A stretch of DNA of 38,790 bases from Candidatus Staskawiczbacteria bacterium RIFCSPHIGHO2_02_FULL_42_22 (lineage in GTDB: Bacteria; Patescibacteriota; Minisyncoccia; Minisyncoccales; Staskawiczbacteraceae), in assembly GCA_001820175.1 (NCBI GenBank), contig MHOT01000026.1:1-38790 (forward strand), read 5' to 3'. The notes beneath the pieces were generated by a model. That model had not been told where the DNA came from. It was given only the letters and a program-made list of their open reading frames with translations, and made no database searches. Positions 8,848 to 36,010 of this stretch are shown one piece after another; within the stretch, counting starts at the first letter, position 1; each line of letters begins with the position of its first letter. Made by a program: the position numbers and the translations under genes.

Positions 8848-8865
8848 AATGCTTTTACTTCGTAA

Positions 8866-8941
8866 AAGAAACTCTAAACTCTAAATTCTAATTTCTAAAT
8901 TCTAAAACGGTTTAGGATTTAGAGTTTAGGATTTAGGGTTT
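8866..8941. repeat. Intergenic foldback, CTAAATT heptad class
   Basis: The cleanest example: AAACTCTAAACTCTAAATTC on one side, TTTAGGATTTAGAGTTTAGG on the other, and the loop AAAACGG is itself one heptad. Provides the end (Lys-Pro-stop) of rplE. Confidence 0.93.
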
Positions 8942-9499: not shown

Positions 9500-9600
9500 T
9501 GTTTTGAATCTTGAATCTAGTATCTTGTATCTTGAATTGAATGTTGAATTCAGAATTCTTTATTCTATTCCAGCTTCCAGATACAAGATACAAGATTCAC
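9497..9600. repeat. Intergenic foldback, GAATCTT heptad class
   Basis: GAATCTTGAATCTAGTATCT against CCAGATACAAGATACAAGAT. Between rplX and rplE. Confidence 0.9.
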
Positions 9601-10675: not shown

Positions 10676-10687
10676 AATGCTTTTGCT

Positions 10688-10765
10688 TCGCAAAAGAAAC
10701 TCTAAATTCTAATTTCTAAATTCTAAAACGGTTTAGGATTTAGAGTTTAGGATTTAGGATTTCGC
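10688..10765. repeat. Intergenic foldback, CTAAATT heptad class
   Basis: AAACTCTAAATTCTAATTTC against TTTAGGATTTAGAGTTTAGG with loop AAAACGG. Nearly the same sequence as 8866-8941. Ends rpmC (Lys-Ser-stop). Confidence 0.9.
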
Positions 10766-11067: not shown

Positions 11068-11484
11068 TTACACCTCGCGTTTAATAAACTTTGTCTTAAT
11101 CGGTAATTTGATACTCGCCCCCTTAAATGCTTCCCGAGCCACTTCCTCCTTCAAGCCGTCGATTTCAAAAATAATCCTTCCTGGTTTTATGGCGTAGACG
11201 TAGTGGTGCACCCCGCCCTTTCCCCCTCCGAGCGGCACCTCTTCTCCCTTTGAAGTTACGGGCTTGTCGGGAAAAATTCTCACCCACAATTTACCTCCCT
11301 TTTTCATATAGCGAATAATATGTCTGCGTGCCGCTTCTAATTGCCGCGCGGTTATCCATTTAGTGCCCATGGCTTTTAATCCAAAACTGCCGAAATTTAA
11401 TTCCGTAGCGCGGGTTTCAACTCCCCTGGTCACTCCTCTGTGCCATTTGCGGTGTTTTACTTTTTTGGGCATCAATAATGTCAT
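11068..11484 (-). CDS. rplP: Large ribosomal subunit protein uL16
   Basis: 138 residues if started at ATG of MTLLMPKKVKHRKWHRG; the inner ATG of MPKKVK is also possible. The upstream part in the track lies in the TTTGACA foldback and was rejected. Conserved: FGSFGLKAM, ITARQLEAARRHIIRYMKKG and GKGGVHHYVYAIKPGRIIFE. Lies between rpsC and rpmC. Confidence 0.95.
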   Translation of the reverse strand: MTLLMPKKVKHRKWHRGVTRGVETRATELNFGSFGLKAMGTKWITARQLEAARRHIIRYMKKGGKLWVRIFPDKPVTSKGEEVPLGGGKGGVHHYVYAIKPGRIIFEIDGLKEEVAREAFKGASIKLPIKTKFIKREV

Positions 11485-11486
11485 AA

Positions 11487-11560
11487 CGAACATTTGACAA
11501 TTAACAATTGACATTTGACTGACACTTTTGGTCAATGGTCAAATGTCAACTGTCAATTGT
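11487..11560. repeat. Intergenic foldback, TTTGACA heptad class
   Basis: CATTTGACAATTAACAATTG against GGTCAAATGTCAACTGTCAA. Between rpsC and rplP. Confidence 0.88.
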
Positions 11561-12264
11561 TATGTAAACTTCTCTCCTTTATAAATCCACACCTTAATTC
11601 CAATAACTCCGTACGTACAATACGCTTCACATTGGGCATAGTCAATATCGGCTCTAATGGTCTGGCGTGGAAGCCGTCCTTGTTTTAACCATTCTTTTCT
11701 GGCAATTTCTACTCCATTCAGTCGCCCCGAGACCTCAATTCTCACCCCCTTTATTTCCGGATTTTGCATCACCCGATCCAATACCATTTTCATCACCTGC
11801 CTAAAAGGAATTCTTTTTTCTAACTGCTGGGCAGCCCATTGAGCGACCAGCATAGCAGAAATCCATGGATTTTTTATTTCTTTAATATCTATTTTTATTT
11901 CCCTTGCTCCGGCCGCCCAGGCCCTGGCCAAGGCGGTTTCCTTTGCCCCTCCTGGTCTTGCCGATGAAAACACTTTATCGTGCATCTTTTTTACAATCAT
12001 TTTTTTTAAGCTTTCTATTCCTTCACCCCCTCGCCCAATAATAAGTCCTGGCCGCGCCGATTCGATGATAATATTTAATTTATTAGCTGAATGTTCTATT
12101 TCTATATTGGAAACCGACGCTTCCACTAAGATTTTTCGCAAAAAATCCTTGATCAAGAAGTCCTCTTCTAGATATCGTGGCATATTGGCACCATAAAAAC
12201 CGCGAACATTCCAGTCCTCTACGCCTTTTATCCTAAATGATTTTGGGTGAACCTTGTGACCCAT
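11560..12264 (-). CDS. rpsC: Small ribosomal subunit protein uS3
   Basis: 234 residues with start MGHKVHPKSFRI, the KH motif (PGLIIGRGGEGIESLKKMI) and the C-terminal domain (GVRIEVSGRLNGVEIARKEW). Part of the mRNA entry channel. It begins right after a small hairpin (TTTTACGAAGTAAAA). Confidence 0.97.
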   Translation of the reverse strand: MGHKVHPKSFRIKGVEDWNVRGFYGANMPRYLEEDFLIKDFLRKILVEASVSNIEIEHSANKLNIIIESARPGLIIGRGGEGIESLKKMIVKKMHDKVFSSARPGGAKETALARAWAAGAREIKIDIKEIKNPWISAMLVAQWAAQQLEKRIPFRQVMKMVLDRVMQNPEIKGVRIEVSGRLNGVEIARKEWLKQGRLPRQTIRADIDYAQCEAYCTYGVIGIKVWIYKGEKFT

Positions 12265-12438: not shown

Positions 12439-12782
12439 CATTTTTTGGGATTAATTTCACTTATCACTAAAGTAATGTGTGACGTCCGTTTCATGATAGG
12501 ATATGCCCTGCCCCGACTCATGGGGTGCGATCGCTTTAATTTGGGACCTTCATCCACCGTAACCTCGGATATTACCAGATTATCTTCAATTAATTGGTAG
12601 TCATGGACCGCAGATGCTACGGCGCTATTGAGTAGGCGCAATACCGGATCTGCGCTTCGCTTTACGGTAAATTCCAACAAGGCCCTGGCGTCAGCCACGT
12701 TCTTGTTGCGTATTAAATCAATCACTTGACGTGATTTCCGGGGAGCAGTTCTTAAATTTCGTAATACGACTTTTACTTCCAT
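12438..12782 (-). CDS. rplV: Large ribosomal subunit protein uL22
   Basis: 114 residues; lines the exit tunnel. MEVKVVLRNLRTAPRKSRQV at the N-terminus and RAYPIMKRTSHITLVISE near the end are the family marks. Ends with TGA. Between rpsS and rpsC. Confidence 0.96.
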   Translation of the reverse strand: MEVKVVLRNLRTAPRKSRQVIDLIRNKNVADARALLEFTVKRSADPVLRLLNSAVASAVHDYQLIEDNLVISEVTVDEGPKLKRSHPMSRGRAYPIMKRTSHITLVISEINPKK

Positions 12783-12784
12783 AA

Positions 12785-12865
12785 TCTACATTTGACCATT
12801 AACATTTGACATTTGACCGACGGCGAAGTTCTTGGTCAATGGTCACATGTCAATGGTCAATTGTT
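12785..12865. repeat. Intergenic foldback, TTTGACA heptad class
   Basis: CATTTGACCATTAACATTTG against GGTCAATGGTCACATGTCAA, loop with CCGACGGCG. Between rpsS and rplV. Confidence 0.88.
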
Positions 12866-13208
12866 ACTTGGCTTCTGGTTTTTTAACTTCCGCTGCTCCG
12901 GCTACCTTAGCCGCCTGTGAAGCTTCGGCTTGCTGCTCTAATCCTTTTTGCATCTTTCCGCCGTGCCGTGAAAATTTGGTTGAAGGAGAAAATTCGCCCA
13001 ATTTATGCCCCACCATATCTTCGCCTACAAATACCGGTATAAATTCTTTTCCGTTATGAACTCCAAAAGTAAACCCGACCATTTCCGGAGAAATCGTACA
13101 GTGGCGTGCCCAGGTTTTAATAACCACCTTGTCCCCCTTTCTTACCCTAAGAACCTTTTCCATTAATCGGGGATCTACAAACGGACCTTTTTTTAAACTT
13201 CTGCTCAT
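12864..13208 (-). CDS. rpsS: Small ribosomal subunit protein uS19
   Basis: 114 residues. The core ([20 protein letters not shown] to [15 protein letters not shown]) is normal. The tail after residue 90 is an Ala/Glu/Lys-rich extension ([20 protein letters not shown]), longer than the usual 90-95 residues. Between rplB and rplV. Confidence 0.96.
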
Positions 13209-13297
13209 TTAAACATTTGACATTTGACATTTGACATTTGACATAACGAACTGTACGGAACGTTGTCAATTTGTCAATGGTTAATTGTCAATTGTTA
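13208..13297. repeat. Intergenic foldback, TTTGACA heptad class
   Basis: Four perfect ACATTTG units, then a centre with ACGAACTGTACGGAACGTTG, then TGTCAAT-type units in 7-bp steps. Between rplB and rpsS. Confidence 0.92.
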
Positions 13298-14158
13298 CTT
13301 CTTTTTACGTCTTTGTATAATAAATTTATTCGTCCACTTTTTACGATATCTCGTTTTCACTCCCAATGCCGGCAAGCCCCATGGTGTTTTTGGATGCTTC
13401 AATCCAATGGGCTGTCTGCCTTCTCCTCCGCCGTGTGGATGGTCAACGGGGTTCATAGCGCTTCCTCGTACATGCGGCCTCCTTCCCTTCAATCGTGATT
13501 TACCTGCTTTCCCTACCCTATAAAATCTATTTTCCGGATTTGAAACCATTCCAATAGTAGCAAAACATTCACCCTTTACTTTTCGTATTTCACTTGAAGG
13601 CATTTTTATATCAGTAAAACCATGTTCTTGCGCTAATACTTGAGCAGCATTCCCGGCAGATCGTACCAATATTCCCCCTTTTCCCGGCTCAAGTTCAATG
13701 TTGTACACGTTGGTCCCAACCGAAATATTTTTCAACTTCATCCGGTTTCCTGGAGTCAAAGGAGCTGCCTCTGAAAATACCACCGTATCGCCTACTTTTA
13801 ATCCTTGTGGAGCCACAATGTATTGCCTTACTTTACTTTGGCTCGCCGAAGCATTTTGCGAAGGCAGCTCTGAATATTCTATTAATGCAATAAAGCCGGT
13901 TCTATTCGGGTCATATTCAAGAGCGATTACCTTGGCCGGCATGTCCATTTTGGTCTGGGAAAATTCTATGATTCGGTACAACTTTTTTACTCCGCCACCC
14001 TTATGGCGCGTGGTAATTCTACCTGATGCCTTTGACCTTCCAACACTGCGTCTTACGTATTTTACAAGCGATTTTTCTGCACGTTTTTTTGTAAGCAAAG
14101 AAAAATCAATCCCGGTCATCCCTCGCCTCGATGGAGTTGTAGGTTTATAAACTTTCAT
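13295..14158 (-). CDS. rplB: Large ribosomal subunit protein uL2
   Basis: 287 residues, full length. The C-terminal signature AMNPVDHPHGGGEGRQPIG near the peptidyl transferase centre is intact, as is GRITTRHKGGGVKKLYR. Between rplW and rpsS. Confidence 0.98.
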   Translation of the reverse strand: MKVYKPTTPSRRGMTGIDFSLLTKKRAEKSLVKYVRRSVGRSKASGRITTRHKGGGVKKLYRIIEFSQTKMDMPAKVIALEYDPNRTGFIALIEYSELPSQNASASQSKVRQYIVAPQGLKVGDTVVFSEAAPLTPGNRMKLKNISVGTNVYNIELEPGKGGILVRSAGNAAQVLAQEHGFTDIKMPSSEIRKVKGECFATIGMVSNPENRFYRVGKAGKSRLKGRRPHVRGSAMNPVDHPHGGGEGRQPIGLKHPKTPWGLPALGVKTRYRKKWTNKFIIQRRKKK

Positions 14159-14694: not shown

Positions 14695-14707
14695 AATTTT
14701 TACAGCG

Positions 14708-14780
14708 TAAAAATAAATCCTAAACTCTAATTTCTAAATTCTAAAACGGTTTAGGATTTAGGGTTTAGGGTTTAGTATTT
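14708..14780. repeat. Intergenic foldback, CTAAATT heptad class
   Basis: CCTAAACTCTAATTTCTAAA against GGTTTAGGATTTAGGGTTTA with centre AAAACGG. Runs into the end of rplD. Confidence 0.9.
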
Positions 14781-15952: not shown

Positions 15953-16134
15953 TATGGAACAAACATTATGAAACCGCACTAAACTCGCCGCAGGTTTGGC
16001 AATATTGGGCGGCTTGGAGCAAAAAGTTTGTGAGGCGTAGCCGAAGCTACGCCGAACAAACTTTTTGTGAAACCTGCCCAAGATTGGCAAATCCGGCAAG
16101 GGTTGGAGTGCGGTTTCATAATGTTTGTTCCATA
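15953..16134. mobile_element. 178-bp TA-flanked palindromic element, copy A
   Basis: Arms TGGAACAAACATTATG and perfect inverse; the core of 178 bp lies between TA and TA. The centre is a GGCGTAGCCGAAGCTACGCC hairpin. Read from the left end it is open for all codons (WAAWSKKF, FCETCPRLANPARVG) and it is also open on the other strand. It sits inside an older ATTGCTTCGC...GCAATGAC repeat (15890-16146). Confidence 0.9.
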
Positions 16135-23418: not shown

Positions 23419-23829
23419 CTATAATAATAAATCTAAAAATTCTTCTACGGTTAATTCTGCTTGTTCAATAATTGACTTTATGGACATCACATCCAGAAAC
23501 CGCACTTAAGTTGCCGGCGGTTTGGCAGTATTGGGCGGCTTGGAGCAAAAAATTTGTGAGGCCTAGCCGTAGCTACGCCGAACAAATTTTTTGTGAAAAC
23601 TGCCCAAGATTGCCAAATCCGGCAAGACTTGGAGTGCGGTTTCAGGATGTGATGTCCATAAGGTCTTTGGATTAAGATCTTTTCTGTGAAAGGGAATGGT
23701 TACTCTTAAATGGGATTTTTCAGGGTGACGAAGTTGAACATGGCTCCCAGATTGGTGATATTCGTAAAAGCGACCTCTTTTTAATGCTCTCAATACCAAT
23801 AACGAAGGAATCCTAGGGAGTTTTGGCAT
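23419..23829 (-). pseudogene. hicA: HicA toxin gene split by a 178-bp palindromic element
   Basis: HicA is an mRNA interferase. Codons 1-57 (MPKLPRIPSLLVLRALKRGR, catalytic His in GSHVQLRH, then DLNPKTL) are followed by the element, then in the same frame KSIIEQAELTVEEFLDLLL and TAG. Removing 180 bp gives a normal 76-residue HicA. In this copy and orientation the insert has TAG and TAA in frame, so translation stops after 88 residues and the C-terminal strand and helix are lost. hicB is directly upstream. Confidence 0.88.
23479..23660. mobile_element. 178-bp TA-flanked palindromic element, copy B, in hicA
   Basis: Arms TGGACATCACATCC and inverse; core 23481-23658, TA at both sides. The plus strand is open for all 60 codons (VWQYWAAWSKKFV, FCENCPRLPNPARLG); the strand used by hicA has two stops, one from a single change in the central palindrome (GGCTAGGCC). 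Confidence 0.92.
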
Positions 23830-25160: not shown

Positions 25161-25264
25161 CTAGAATCTTGAATTTAGTATCTGGTATCTTGAATTGAAT
25201 ATTGAATTTGGAATTCTTAATTCCTGATTCTATTCCAGCTTCAAGATACGAGATTCCATATTCA
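25161..25264. repeat. Foldback in the rpsL leader, GAATCTT heptad class
   Basis: GAATCTTGAATTTAGTATCT against TTCAAGATACGAGATTCCAT. It lies between promoter and rpsL, so it is in the leader RNA. Confidence 0.88.
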
Positions 25265-28245: not shown

Positions 28246-28355
28246 TTGAATCTTGAATCTTGAATCTGGAATCTTGTATCTTGAATTGAATAACTGAATG
28301 TGGAATTCTGGATTCCTTATTCTATTCCAGCTTCAAGATACGAGATTCTAGATTC
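28246..28355. repeat. Intergenic foldback, GAATCTT heptad class
   Basis: GAATCTTGAATCTTGAATCT against TTCAAGATACGAGATTCTAG, regular 7-bp steps. Confidence 0.9.
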
Positions 28356-29244
28356 ATTTTATCACTTTTATATTCTCTCCATCGCTCAAAATTTCCACCG
28401 TTCCCTGCTCATCCGTCCTTAACGTGGTTATACCAAAATTCTGTAATCTTTGCAAAACTTCGATAGCTGGATGCCCGTAGGTATTTTTTGCGCCAACGGA
28501 AATAACTGCCAGATCAGGATGCACTGCTTCCAAAAAATTTTCTGACGTTGAAAACCGCGACCCATGGTGGGCCACCTTCAATACATCTGAAGTTAATGTC
28601 GCCTCGCCTTTTACCAATGCCTCTTCAACCACACTTGAAACATCGGCAGTAAATAAAAAAGAATTTTTACCGTAGGTTAGCCGGCTTACAATACCCGTAT
28701 CATTATCTTCATTTTTGGGCCGGGCGTCCCGGCCTTCTATGTTAATAAAAGGATGCAAAGTTTCAATGGCTACCTTGTCGTTTTTTATTTGGTCGCCAGC
28801 TTTGGTAATAATGATTTTTGTCCCCTGTTTTTTGGCTTTTTCCAACAGCGTAAGCCATACTTGGTATTGCTCTCCGCCGCGCACGACACCGTTCCATATA
28901 ATATAGTCCACCTTATACTTTTTTAAAACGTAGAGCAGTCCGTTTAGGTGATCAGCGTCGGGGTGGGTTAACATGACCACGTCTAAGTGGCGCTGCCAGA
29001 AGGGTAATAGTTTGTGTAATTTACTCATTACCATAGCGTCTACTCCGCCATCAATGATAATGTGGCGCATACTGGGAGTTTCTATAAAAATGGAGTCACC
29101 CTGGCCGATATCTAATACCCGCACTTTTAAATGGCGGGGAAGAGCCAATATCCAAACCTGCTGCCAAATAAATATGTTTAACAATAATAAAACAGTTATT
29201 GCTCCCAAACATATTTTTTGTCTTGTGGTAAAAAAATTTTCCAT
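28354..29244 (-). CDS. ComEC/Rec2-type metallo-beta-lactamase-fold hydrolase
   Basis: 296 residues: one N-terminal membrane segment (about 13-32), then an MBL domain outside the membrane. VRVLDIGQGDSIFIETP, the metal motif THPDADHLNG and KVAHHGSRFS are the ComEC C-terminal signatures. The channel domain of full ComEC is absent, so it may be a free nuclease acting with a separate channel, or a different phosphodiesterase. Confidence 0.88.
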   Translation of the reverse strand: MENFFTTRQKICLGAITVLLLLNIFIWQQVWILALPRHLKVRVLDIGQGDSIFIETPSMRHIIIDGGVDAMVMSKLHKLLPFWQRHLDVVMLTHPDADHLNGLLYVLKKYKVDYIIWNGVVRGGEQYQVWLTLLEKAKKQGTKIIITKAGDQIKNDKVAIETLHPFINIEGRDARPKNEDNDTGIVSRLTYGKNSFLFTADVSSVVEEALVKGEATLTSDVLKVAHHGSRFSTSENFLEAVHPDLAVISVGAKNTYGHPAIEVLQRLQNFGITTLRTDEQGTVEILSDGENIKVIK

Positions 29245-30687: not shown

Positions 30688-30705
30688 AGCTTTTGCTTCG
30701 CAAAA

Positions 30706-30780
30706 GAAATTCTAAATTAAAAATCCTAAATCCTAAACCGTTTGAGAATTTAGAATTTAGAGTTTAGAGTTTAGGATTTC
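30706..30780. repeat. Intergenic foldback, CTAAATT heptad class
   Basis: AATTCTAAATTAAAAATCCT against TTTAGAATTTAGAGTTTAGA. Ends the SpoU gene (Lys-Ser-stop); a CTTTTGCGAAGCAAAAG hairpin precedes the DUF5652 start. Confidence 0.88.
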
Positions 30781-31340: not shown

Positions 31341-32003
31341 CTACAACAATCTAAACTTATTTATCACCAACCCGAAATCGTACCCCAAAAATTGGGCGGC
31401 TTTGCGGCAAAATACCATGCGTTCGGTAAAAATTTCAAAATATTCCATGACGGGGCAAAAGTTAGTATCAATTTTCAAGGTCAAGGTAATTCTCTTTTTA
31501 TCCTTTTCCACTTTTAACATACTTTCGCGTGCCGCATAATTAACCCGGTCATGAATATCAGTTTTAAAATGATCCGGATCCGTTTTTGTAACCCGGGACC
31601 GGTCCACATCCGATTTATCGGCCAGCACTAAAATGGCAGATATGCGGTGGGTAAAATTCATTTCTTCTTTATCGTGATTAGAAATGGCCTGCATGATAAC
31701 CGCCAGTTCATTTGGGTCGAACTGATTTCCAAACACTTGGCCGAAAAGAAGCGCGCCAAAAAAATGGTGGAATGTGCGGGTCATAAAGTTTCCCATATCG
31801 TGGCAAAAACCGGCAATACCGGCCAGTTCGCACCGGCGCTCATCTAATCCGATTTTTTTGGCGATATCCATGGCCCGACTAGACACCACGCTAGAATGGC
31901 GCAACCCGTGGTTGGTATATGATAAGGCCTGCATAGCCCCTTCGGTTTGCTTAATAAACTCCAGTATTTGGGGATTTTTTTTGACGTCGTCTAAATTTAT
32001 CAT
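31341..32003 (-). CDS. HD-domain phosphohydrolase-like protein
   Basis: 220 residues. HGLRHSSVVSSRAMDIAKKI, GIAGFCHDMGNF and ILVLADKSDVDRSRV fit the H...HD...D metal ligands of the HD superfamily. The C-terminal part (ITLTLKIDTNFCPVMEYFEI) is an extra domain. Probably a phosphohydrolase acting on a nucleotide, substrate unknown. Confidence 0.85.
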   Translation of the reverse strand: MINLDDVKKNPQILEFIKQTEGAMQALSYTNHGLRHSSVVSSRAMDIAKKIGLDERRCELAGIAGFCHDMGNFMTRTFHHFFGALLFGQVFGNQFDPNELAVIMQAISNHDKEEMNFTHRISAILVLADKSDVDRSRVTKTDPDHFKTDIHDRVNYAARESMLKVEKDKKRITLTLKIDTNFCPVMEYFEIFTERMVFCRKAAQFLGYDFGLVINKFRLL

Positions 32004-32099
32004 CGGATAAATTTAACATTTAACATTTGACAATTGACATTTGACTTAACGAATTTCGTAAAACGTTGTCAATTGTCAATGGTCACATGTCAATTGTTA
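32004..32099. repeat. Intergenic foldback, TTTGACA heptad class
   Basis: AACATTTAACATTTGACAAT against TTGTCAATGGTCACATGTCA, centre AACGAATTTCGTAAAACGTTG. Confidence 0.9.
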
Positions 32100-32707
32100 T
32101 TAAATCTTTTCTCTATTTTCTCCCAATTTACCACATTCCACCACGCTTTCAAATAATCTGGTCGCACATTTTTATACTGCAAATAGTAGGCATGTTCCCA
32201 GACATCGTTTCCCATAATGGGCGCCGAGCCCTCGCTCATGGGGTTGTCCTGGTTTGCGGTAGACACAATTTCTAAAGCACCAGTTTTGGTACGCACTAAC
32301 CACACCCACCCTGAACCAAATCGTTTGGCACCCGCATCATTAAACTTGGTTTGAAATTCAGCAAAACTGCCGAATTGATTTTCAATAGCTCCCAGCAACT
32401 GGCCTTCTGGCTTTTGGCCAGATGACGGAGCCATAATCTGCCAAAACATTGAGTGATTAACGTGTCCCCCGCCATTATTTTTAACAGCCATACGAATTTC
32501 TTCTGGCACTTGATCTAAATTCATCAATAATTCTTCCGGGGTCTTTTCAAAAAGATCCGGATATTTCTCCAGTGCCGCATTTAAATTATTCACGTAAGCG
32601 GCGTGATGTTTATCATGGTGCAACATCATAATTTCTTTTGAAATATAGGGTTCCAGGGCATCGTAGGCGTAAGGTAAATCAGACAATGTGTGTATTATTT
32701 TTCCCAT
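32090..32707 (-). CDS. Superoxide dismutase, Fe/Mn family
   Basis: 205 residues from ATG ([20 protein letters not shown]). [32 protein letters not shown] and [20 protein letters not shown] give all metal ligands. Converts superoxide to peroxide and oxygen. The track adds 22 codons from a palindromic element upstream; these are not conserved. Confidence 0.95.
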
Positions 32708-34897: not shown

Positions 34898-35079
34898 TAT
34901 GGACATCACATCCAGAAACCACACTCCAAGTCTTGCCGGATTTGCCAATCTTGGGCAGTTTTCAAAAAAAATATGTTCGCCGTAGCTTCGGCTACGCCTC
35001 GCATATTTTTTGTTCCAAGCCGCCCAAGATTGCCAAACCGCCGGCGACTTTAGTGCGGTTTCTGGATGTGATGTCCATA
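34898..35079. mobile_element. 178-bp TA-flanked palindromic element, copy C
   Basis: Arms TGGACATCACATCC as in copy B; core 34900-35077 with TA at both sides. Open in both orientations (minus: WAAWNKKYARRSRSYG, FENCPRLANPARLG). Lies within a larger inverted repeat whose arms are CACGAC/GTCGTG and CGCAGTT/AACTGCG (34890-35255). Confidence 0.9.
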
Positions 35080-35263: not shown

Positions 35264-36010
35264 TCAGAATTTTGCCCAAGAATTTTGTTGATAATATTGC
35301 CATGGCCGCATCTGCTCAACCTGGGCTTTTTTAAGAATCATATCTTGAATATGCAATGCGGATTTTTTCTCAATAGCCGGCAAAAAAACGGTGTCTTTGT
35401 GCTCAAAGTTCTCATTTTGACCCTCTTCCCCGGAAATGGTAATCACAATATCGCTCATGCCCAGAATTTGATCCAACAAACTTCTTTGAATTTTAACATC
35501 TTGGATGTGGCGGTAAGGAATGACGGTTATATCTTCTGAAATTATGGAACAAACATTATGAAACCGCACTCCAAGTCTTGACGGATTTGCCAATCTTGGG
35601 CAGTTTTCACAAAAAATTTGTTTGCCGTAGCTACGGCTACGCCAAACATATTTTTTGCTCCAAGCCGCCCAATATTGCCAAACCGTCGGCAACTTTAGTG
35701 CGGTTTCATAATGTTTGTTCCATAGCCCCTTTTTAATTTTTAAATTTTTCTGGGCAATGAAAATTCCGTAGTGAATGTACTCAAGCCAACCGATGGCAAA
35801 CACCAAAACCAATGCAAATAACAAAAAGGCCAAAAAAAGAAGTAGCACATTAGCAGTCACTGCAACATAAGTTACCGGAATATAGTTTAGTGAAACTAGT
35901 CCCGCAAACAGCATGGGTACCAGCACAAAAAATACTCCACTTTTACGCAAAATCAGCATAAAAAGTGTTTTCTGCCCCAGTGGATGGTACGTATGAATAT
36001 TTTCTTCCAT
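35264..36010 (-). CDS. Bacterial PH-domain (YdbS-like) membrane protein carrying an in-frame palindromic insert
   Basis: 248 residues. Two membrane segments (about 17-42 and 50-76), then the bPH2 domain beginning IAQKNLKIKKGL. Residues 97-156 are encoded by element copy D. The domain then continues ISEDITVIPYRHIQDVKIQR, the normal continuation of KKGL in this family. Without the insert the protein is 188 residues. The insert sits in the loop between the first two PH strands and has a Cys pair (FCENC). Role of the family: membrane-associated, poorly known. Confidence 0.88.
   Translation of the reverse strand: MEENIHTYHPLGQKTLFMLILRKSGVFFVLVPMLFAGLVSLNYIPVTYVAVTANVLLLFLAFLLFALVLVFAIGWLEYIHYGIFIAQKNLKIKKGLWNKHYETALKLPTVWQYWAAWSKKYVWRSRSYGKQIFCENCPRLANPSRLGVRFHNVCSIISEDITVIPYRHIQDVKIQRSLLDQILGMSDIVITISGEEGQNENFEHKDTVFLPAIEKKSALHIQDMILKKAQVEQMRPWQYYQQNSWAKF
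35543..35724. mobile_element. 178-bp TA-flanked palindromic element, copy D, inside the PH gene
   Basis: Arms TGGAACAAACATTATG as in copy A; core 35545-35722. Target CTA: the element adds 180 bp including one TA, so the frame is kept. Open in both orientations. Confidence 0.95.

Follow-up and report, generated by a model that had tools for sequence, protein, structure and literature searches.

Separate histories of arms and core in a mobile hairpin element of Patescibacteria

Correia elements (NEMIS) of Neisseria are non-autonomous sequences of about 100-200 bp with inverted ends and TA at the ends, present in many intergenic copies; they form a long stem-loop, occur with and without an internal module, and inversion of the element has been reported (PMC10969869, PMC2229807). 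Rickettsia palindromic elements (RPE) often lie in genes, into which they can insert in frame (PMC10969869, PMC2229807), and mobilisation by IS630-Spn1 has been proposed for the RUP elements of Streptococcus pneumoniae (PMC2229807).

The element described here was found in a contig of the tiny groundwater bacterium Candidatus Staskawiczbacteria bacterium RIFCSPHIGHO2_02_FULL_42_22, analysed over its whole stretch of 38,790 nucleotides (the window). It resembles Correia elements, by description and not by sequence, in size, non-autonomy, inverted ends, TA, intergenic copies, stem-loop, internal module and inversion, but it pairs over almost its full length and has at least five arm types shuffled over shared cores. 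Its palindrome and in-frame insertion (copy D, below, adds 60 codons) recall RPE, although RPE are frequent in genes, and a single examined copy of the present element is clearly inserted in one. A TA target, non-autonomy and movement probably in trans are shared with RUP, but no insertion sequence with matching ends was found for the present element. Hairpins maintained by template switching (PMC8794818) show similar patterns of multi-base compensatory change and loop inversion; those are, however, host RNA genes, whereas private changes in the present element are mostly one-sided.

A mobile hairpin in four copies

The window contains four copies of the element (A, B, C and D), all 182 bp long with TA at both ends:

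15953..16134, plus strand: copy A, 182 bp, beta arms TATGGAACAAACATTATGAAACCGCACT, flanked by ribosomal protein genes
23479..23660, plus strand: copy B, 182 bp, alpha arms
34898..35079, minus strand: copy C, 182 bp, alpha arms, intergenic hairpin with TA at each end
34898..34925: arm of copy C, the right arm of the element on the minus strand, TATGGACATCACATCCAGAAACCACACT
35052..35079: second arm of copy C, complementary to 34898-34925 but for one C/T change (G-U in RNA)
35264..36010, minus strand: bPH_2 gene, 248 aa, host of copy D
35543..35724, minus strand: copy D, 182 bp, beta arms, in frame inside the bacterial PH-domain gene (net 180 bp, 60 codons, TA duplicated)

The span 34898-35079 is exactly one element copy, a 182-bp palindrome. 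Self-folding extends over nearly the entire length of each window copy, the arms being perfect or near-perfect inverted repeats of 28 bp, and the RNA folding energy is -113.5 kcal/mol, against -48.5 for shuffled sequences (z = -15.4; z = -15.75 for DNA folding). These scores, together with 72 blast matches (about 35-40 places) in the element's own genome (821 kb, 95% complete), show that the hairpin is not due to chance. Both ends read TATGGAACAAACATTATG in copies A and D and TATGGACATCACATCC in copies B and C, and the interior from GAAACCGCACT onward is common to all four; this agrees with the first-pass annotation of this DNA, which had described one arm type in A and D, another in B and C, and a shared inner sequence.

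The empty-site reconstruction at copy D identifies the element as a mobile element that duplicates TA. Removal of 180 bp (182 less one TA) keeps the reading frame, with the junction ...KKGLISEDITVIPYRHIQDVKI..., and the bPH_2 gene without this insert gives a gapless alignment across that point to its orthologues from five genomes of the genus; deletion of 182 bp would produce a frameshift, and it follows that TA was duplicated on insertion and that the gene gained 60 codons. Its frame nevertheless remains open. Among the copies examined, copy D alone is clearly intragenic and the others are mostly intergenic. In-frame coding was rejected as the main function, since most copies are intergenic and frame +2, open in 17 of 32 own-genome copies, is open in only 2 of 18 relatives. 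None of the copies carries a gene for its own movement. The element is short, lacks a transposase gene and has inverted terminal repeats, as in MITEs, and at copy D it has a target-site duplication with an empty site. The frequent in-frame gene insertion of RPE is represented by one clear case, and the duplicated TA differs from IS200/IS605-derived or REP sequences, for which no target duplication and a Y1 transposase are expected; no Y1 transposase was found in the own genome. No Rfam family reached the gathering score in the window, and hits to miRNA-type families, being long hairpins scoring far under threshold, were set aside.

The window also has three families of quasi-palindromic intergenic stretches, many of them between ribosomal protein genes, made of degenerate short tandem words (CTAAATT/TTTAGAG, TTGAATC/GATTCAA, TTGACAT/ATGTCAA):

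8858-8941, 10679-10762, 14697-14780, 30689-30772: first group
2710-2793, 9504-9599, 25162-25257, 28261-28356: second group
11482-11571, 12780-12875, 13193-13306, 31996-32108: third group

Arm types, cores and base pairing

At least five arm types are present in the own genome:

alpha, TATGGACATCACATCCAGAAACCGCACT: 19 matched full-length copies
beta, TATGGAACAAACATTATGAAACCGCACT: 2 matched full-length copies
gamma, TATAGAACAAACATTATCACTTTGCACT: 4 matched full-length copies
delta, TATGGAACAAACATTACAAAACCGGCACT: 2 matched full-length copies
epsilon, TATAGAACACACATTCCAGAATTGGACTT: 2 matched full-length copies

The same type stands on both sides in 29 of the 31 full-length copies. The mixed copies are C17:1751 (left epsilon, right delta) and C4:13911 (left beta, right beta/delta), and a third, C12:49168, is shortened, with an alpha left arm joined to an inverted gamma left arm. 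With one tandem duplicate excluded, arms match in 28 of 30 copies, against a maximum of 21 in 100,000 permutations. The annotation's two terminal types on one core are therefore a correct description of the window but not of the genome, where several cores occur and the arm types number at least five, and mismatched arm pairs, the absence of which it had raised, turn out to be rare among the 31 full-length copies (two, plus the shortened one) and not missing. Two identical copies (L005, L006, at G000:C27:17783-18178) form a 214-bp tandem duplication that takes in flanking DNA.

Arms and middle have separate histories. Partner sites of left and right arm are strongly associated across the element (r2 0.79-0.86), r2 is 0.06-0.21 between core sites that are not partners, and between arm and core it is 0.07-0.12, low even for close sites, so that in a clustering by core and by arm the types do combine. 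Near-identical cores lie under different arms, with 5-7 core differences versus 9-28 arm differences: C8:2383 (delta) and C4:15345 (alpha) differ at 5 core and 20 arm sites, D (beta) and C18:68332 (gamma) at 6 core and 11 arm sites. Conversely, a second delta core has 24 differences from that of C8:2383, and A and D, with arms alike, differ at 16 core sites. At 22 of the 51 core sites, all four combinations with alpha and non-alpha arms occur, and the four-gamete test fails for 286 of the 1275 pairs of core sites. Two extra hairpin modules have been inserted in some copies, module X at one junction under alpha, gamma and epsilon arms and module Y in gamma and delta copies; because the modules sit at the same junction under different arms, core exchange is by descent and not by parallel mutation. 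The imported stretch in C19:20411 and C8:2383 is the left half of the core and ends near the loop. In the relative family of genome G384, six complete copies share the orientation of the core, and L211, one of the seven complete copies, has it inverted between the same tips; this inversion through inverted arms is direct evidence that the tips are separable from the core.

Base pairing was analysed in 38 copies from four genomes, and is found in 94% of cells. Changes on both sides have occurred at 37 of 75 pairs, giving a covariation score of 0.316, compared with 0.128 after shuffling and 0.04-0.07 with slid partners. In line with the selection for pairing of the ends put forward in the annotation, pairing is conserved, and well past the ends, with an r2 of 0.74 for core partner sites versus 0.13 for distance-matched controls (0 of 20,000 draws). 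In the arms, two-sided states are multi-copy in 17 cases and private in one (C16:22249, positions 27/156, the single private paired arm change), and one-sided states are private in 12 cases and multi-copy in 7, counts that are not independent, as sites within one arm type are linked. Frequent template-switch repair would yield private two-sided changes; the pattern fits better with selection under which paired copies multiply and unpaired ones are dead ends. Pairing of the tips is not obligatory, since in at least six complete copies in G384 the two tips disagree at positions 6-8, one having GACATC and the other GGTGTC.

Distribution and transposase search

By blastn, the element is present in 2 of 13 genomes of the genus and gave no match in the remaining 245 genomes of the order, and a pattern scan of 84,980 species returned matches in Candidatus Staskawiczbacteria, Candidatus Magasanikbacteria and Candidatus Yanofskybacteria. 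The Magasanikbacteria genome has about 20 copies according to a covariance model, with the tip TATRGACATCACAT on two different cores, and two more genomes of the phylum, G384 and G511, carry this tip on unrelated cores. Several Magasanikbacteria copies (L180, L181, L183-L186, L189) share the arms TATGGACATCACATTTAGAAACCGCACTAAG and have a quite different core. Weak covariance-model matches in G358, G447, G455 and G491, with other arms and little common sequence, were not taken into the family. Viral contigs, phages and plasmids were rejected as carriers, their core-pattern matches being coding coincidences, the arm match in L214 corresponding to the start of a phage gene (MEQTLLN), and blastn against them giving no match. 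A different hairpin element with arms AGGCCTCGTCCGTAAATAAC is inserted within a copy of the 182-bp family (L167 130-317; G000:C5:17541-17705), and similar hairpins are found in L168, L170 and L175.

Searches of the draft genomes for DDE_3, DDE_Tnp_1 and Y1 transposases and for arm patterns found no transposase with the element's ends, and DDE_3 had no match in three other element-bearing genomes. The sole IS630-type transposase of the own genome has other ends, TATAGCCTGTTAAAAACAAAATGTCGC; the IS630 of contig C30 was rejected as partner on account of its different ends, and L113, L109 and L105 were rejected as source of the arms, their ends being other sequences. L105 has a complete IS630-type insertion sequence (912-2027) with a 341-aa transposase and ends TATAGCCTGTTAAAAACAAAATGTCGC with TA, and L113, L182, L109 and L173 have other hairpins with arms like insertion sequence ends (TAGACTTGTCCC.AAATAA; TGAATTACGAAA), nested in L113. 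Ends shared with a resident autonomous insertion sequence support a MITE assignment, but are lacking for many accepted bacterial MITEs. As no partner with matching ends was found in these draft genomes for the transposase families searched, the element is named MITE-like.

A probable explanation for linked arms around an exchanged core

Were the arms exchanged, or the core between them? The element is likely a non-autonomous, TA-duplicating, MITE-like fold-back element made of one long imperfect hairpin, commonly of 182 bp, whose interior is exchanged or inverted by recombination. A DDE-type transposase acting in trans would recognise ends of the form TATRGA....ACAT, and dispersed copies would exchange cores by recombining within the interior they have in common, either through gene conversion or through inversion via the inverted arms. 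Since each copy is flanked by unique DNA, the arms would escape conversion and stay as they were at insertion, looking as if they changed together; linked arms around an unlinked core are the trace expected of conversion tracts that cannot extend past the arms. Copies with pairing arms would multiply, so that the arm types that spread would be self-complementary. We infer gene conversion from these sequence patterns, and the role of pairing in movement likewise. Replacement of the core is also simpler, requiring one internal tract versus at least two events for swapping both arms. The annotation had concluded that both arms were exchanged together; a single internal tract leaves the same pattern, and cores replaced in their left half only are observed (C19:20411, C8:2383), so that this conclusion is not supported. 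Its statement that such arms are not expected for a MITE was too strong, as the G384 relative has multiplied with tips differing at positions 6-8.

The annotation also proposed arm-copying, in which replication slips to the opposite hairpin arm by template switching, so that the sequence of one arm replaces that of the other and paired changes arise at once in blocks. This is conceivable but not required, and we regard it as unlikely. Arm types are separated by runs of fully paired changes, C16:22249 has its private paired change, an inverted gamma left arm is attached to the alpha left arm of C12:49168, the L211 core inversion is a known outcome of template switching too, and multi-site compensatory changes by this route have been described (PMC8794818); however, private arm states are one-sided in 12 cases and two-sided in one, mixed-arm copies persist, and several core exchanges are linear, stopping near the loop, instead of symmetrical. 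It is likewise doubtful that recognition of the hairpin depends mostly on its folded shape rather than on a fixed end sequence, with the machinery or replication copying arm onto arm, creating new ends in one step and keeping a passenger core. Compensatory selection acting on a structured nucleic acid, either transcribed RNA or extruded DNA, could explain covariation over the whole length, core and apical stem included, as well as the prevalence of multi-copy states among two-sided arm states (17 of 18) and of single ones among one-sided states (12 of 19). Yet it is improbable as the main force, with arms drifting pair by pair and recombination minor, given that conservation in unpaired interior columns does not exceed that in paired ones, that no Rfam family exceeds threshold, that the presence of modules X and Y under different arms calls for exchange, and that the G384 family amplified despite unpaired tip positions.

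Separate lineages, each with its own transposase and with cores alike only by parallel evolution, are very unlikely. Related genomes do have hairpins with arms near the ends of resident insertion sequences (L182 and L113; L173 and L109), but the arm and core combinations (22 of 51 core sites) and the four-gamete test (286 of 1275 pairs) largely refute this reading, the same module junctions under different arms speak against it, and the strict separation of arm and core lineages that the annotation had named as fatal to its own proposal is not what is seen. That short reads were stitched into false cores is hardly credible. The draft is in 30 contigs and the element exceeds typical short-read length, and an individual mixed copy like C17:1751 could result from chimeric assembly, but mis-joins would produce mixed arms, which are rare (3 in about 32), and would not swap the core between matched arms; moreover, the pattern recurs in the independent genome G003, where similar cores carry alpha and eta arms.

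Taken together, the element represents an apparently undescribed family of mobile hairpins across distant Patescibacteria (Staskawicz-, Magasanik- and Yanofskybacteria, and at least two more families), of which one small genome holds enough copies to tell apart the histories of ends and cores. Non-autonomous elements can shuffle their ends and interiors as modules while keeping long-range pairing, and this bears on how such elements could survive a change of transposase.
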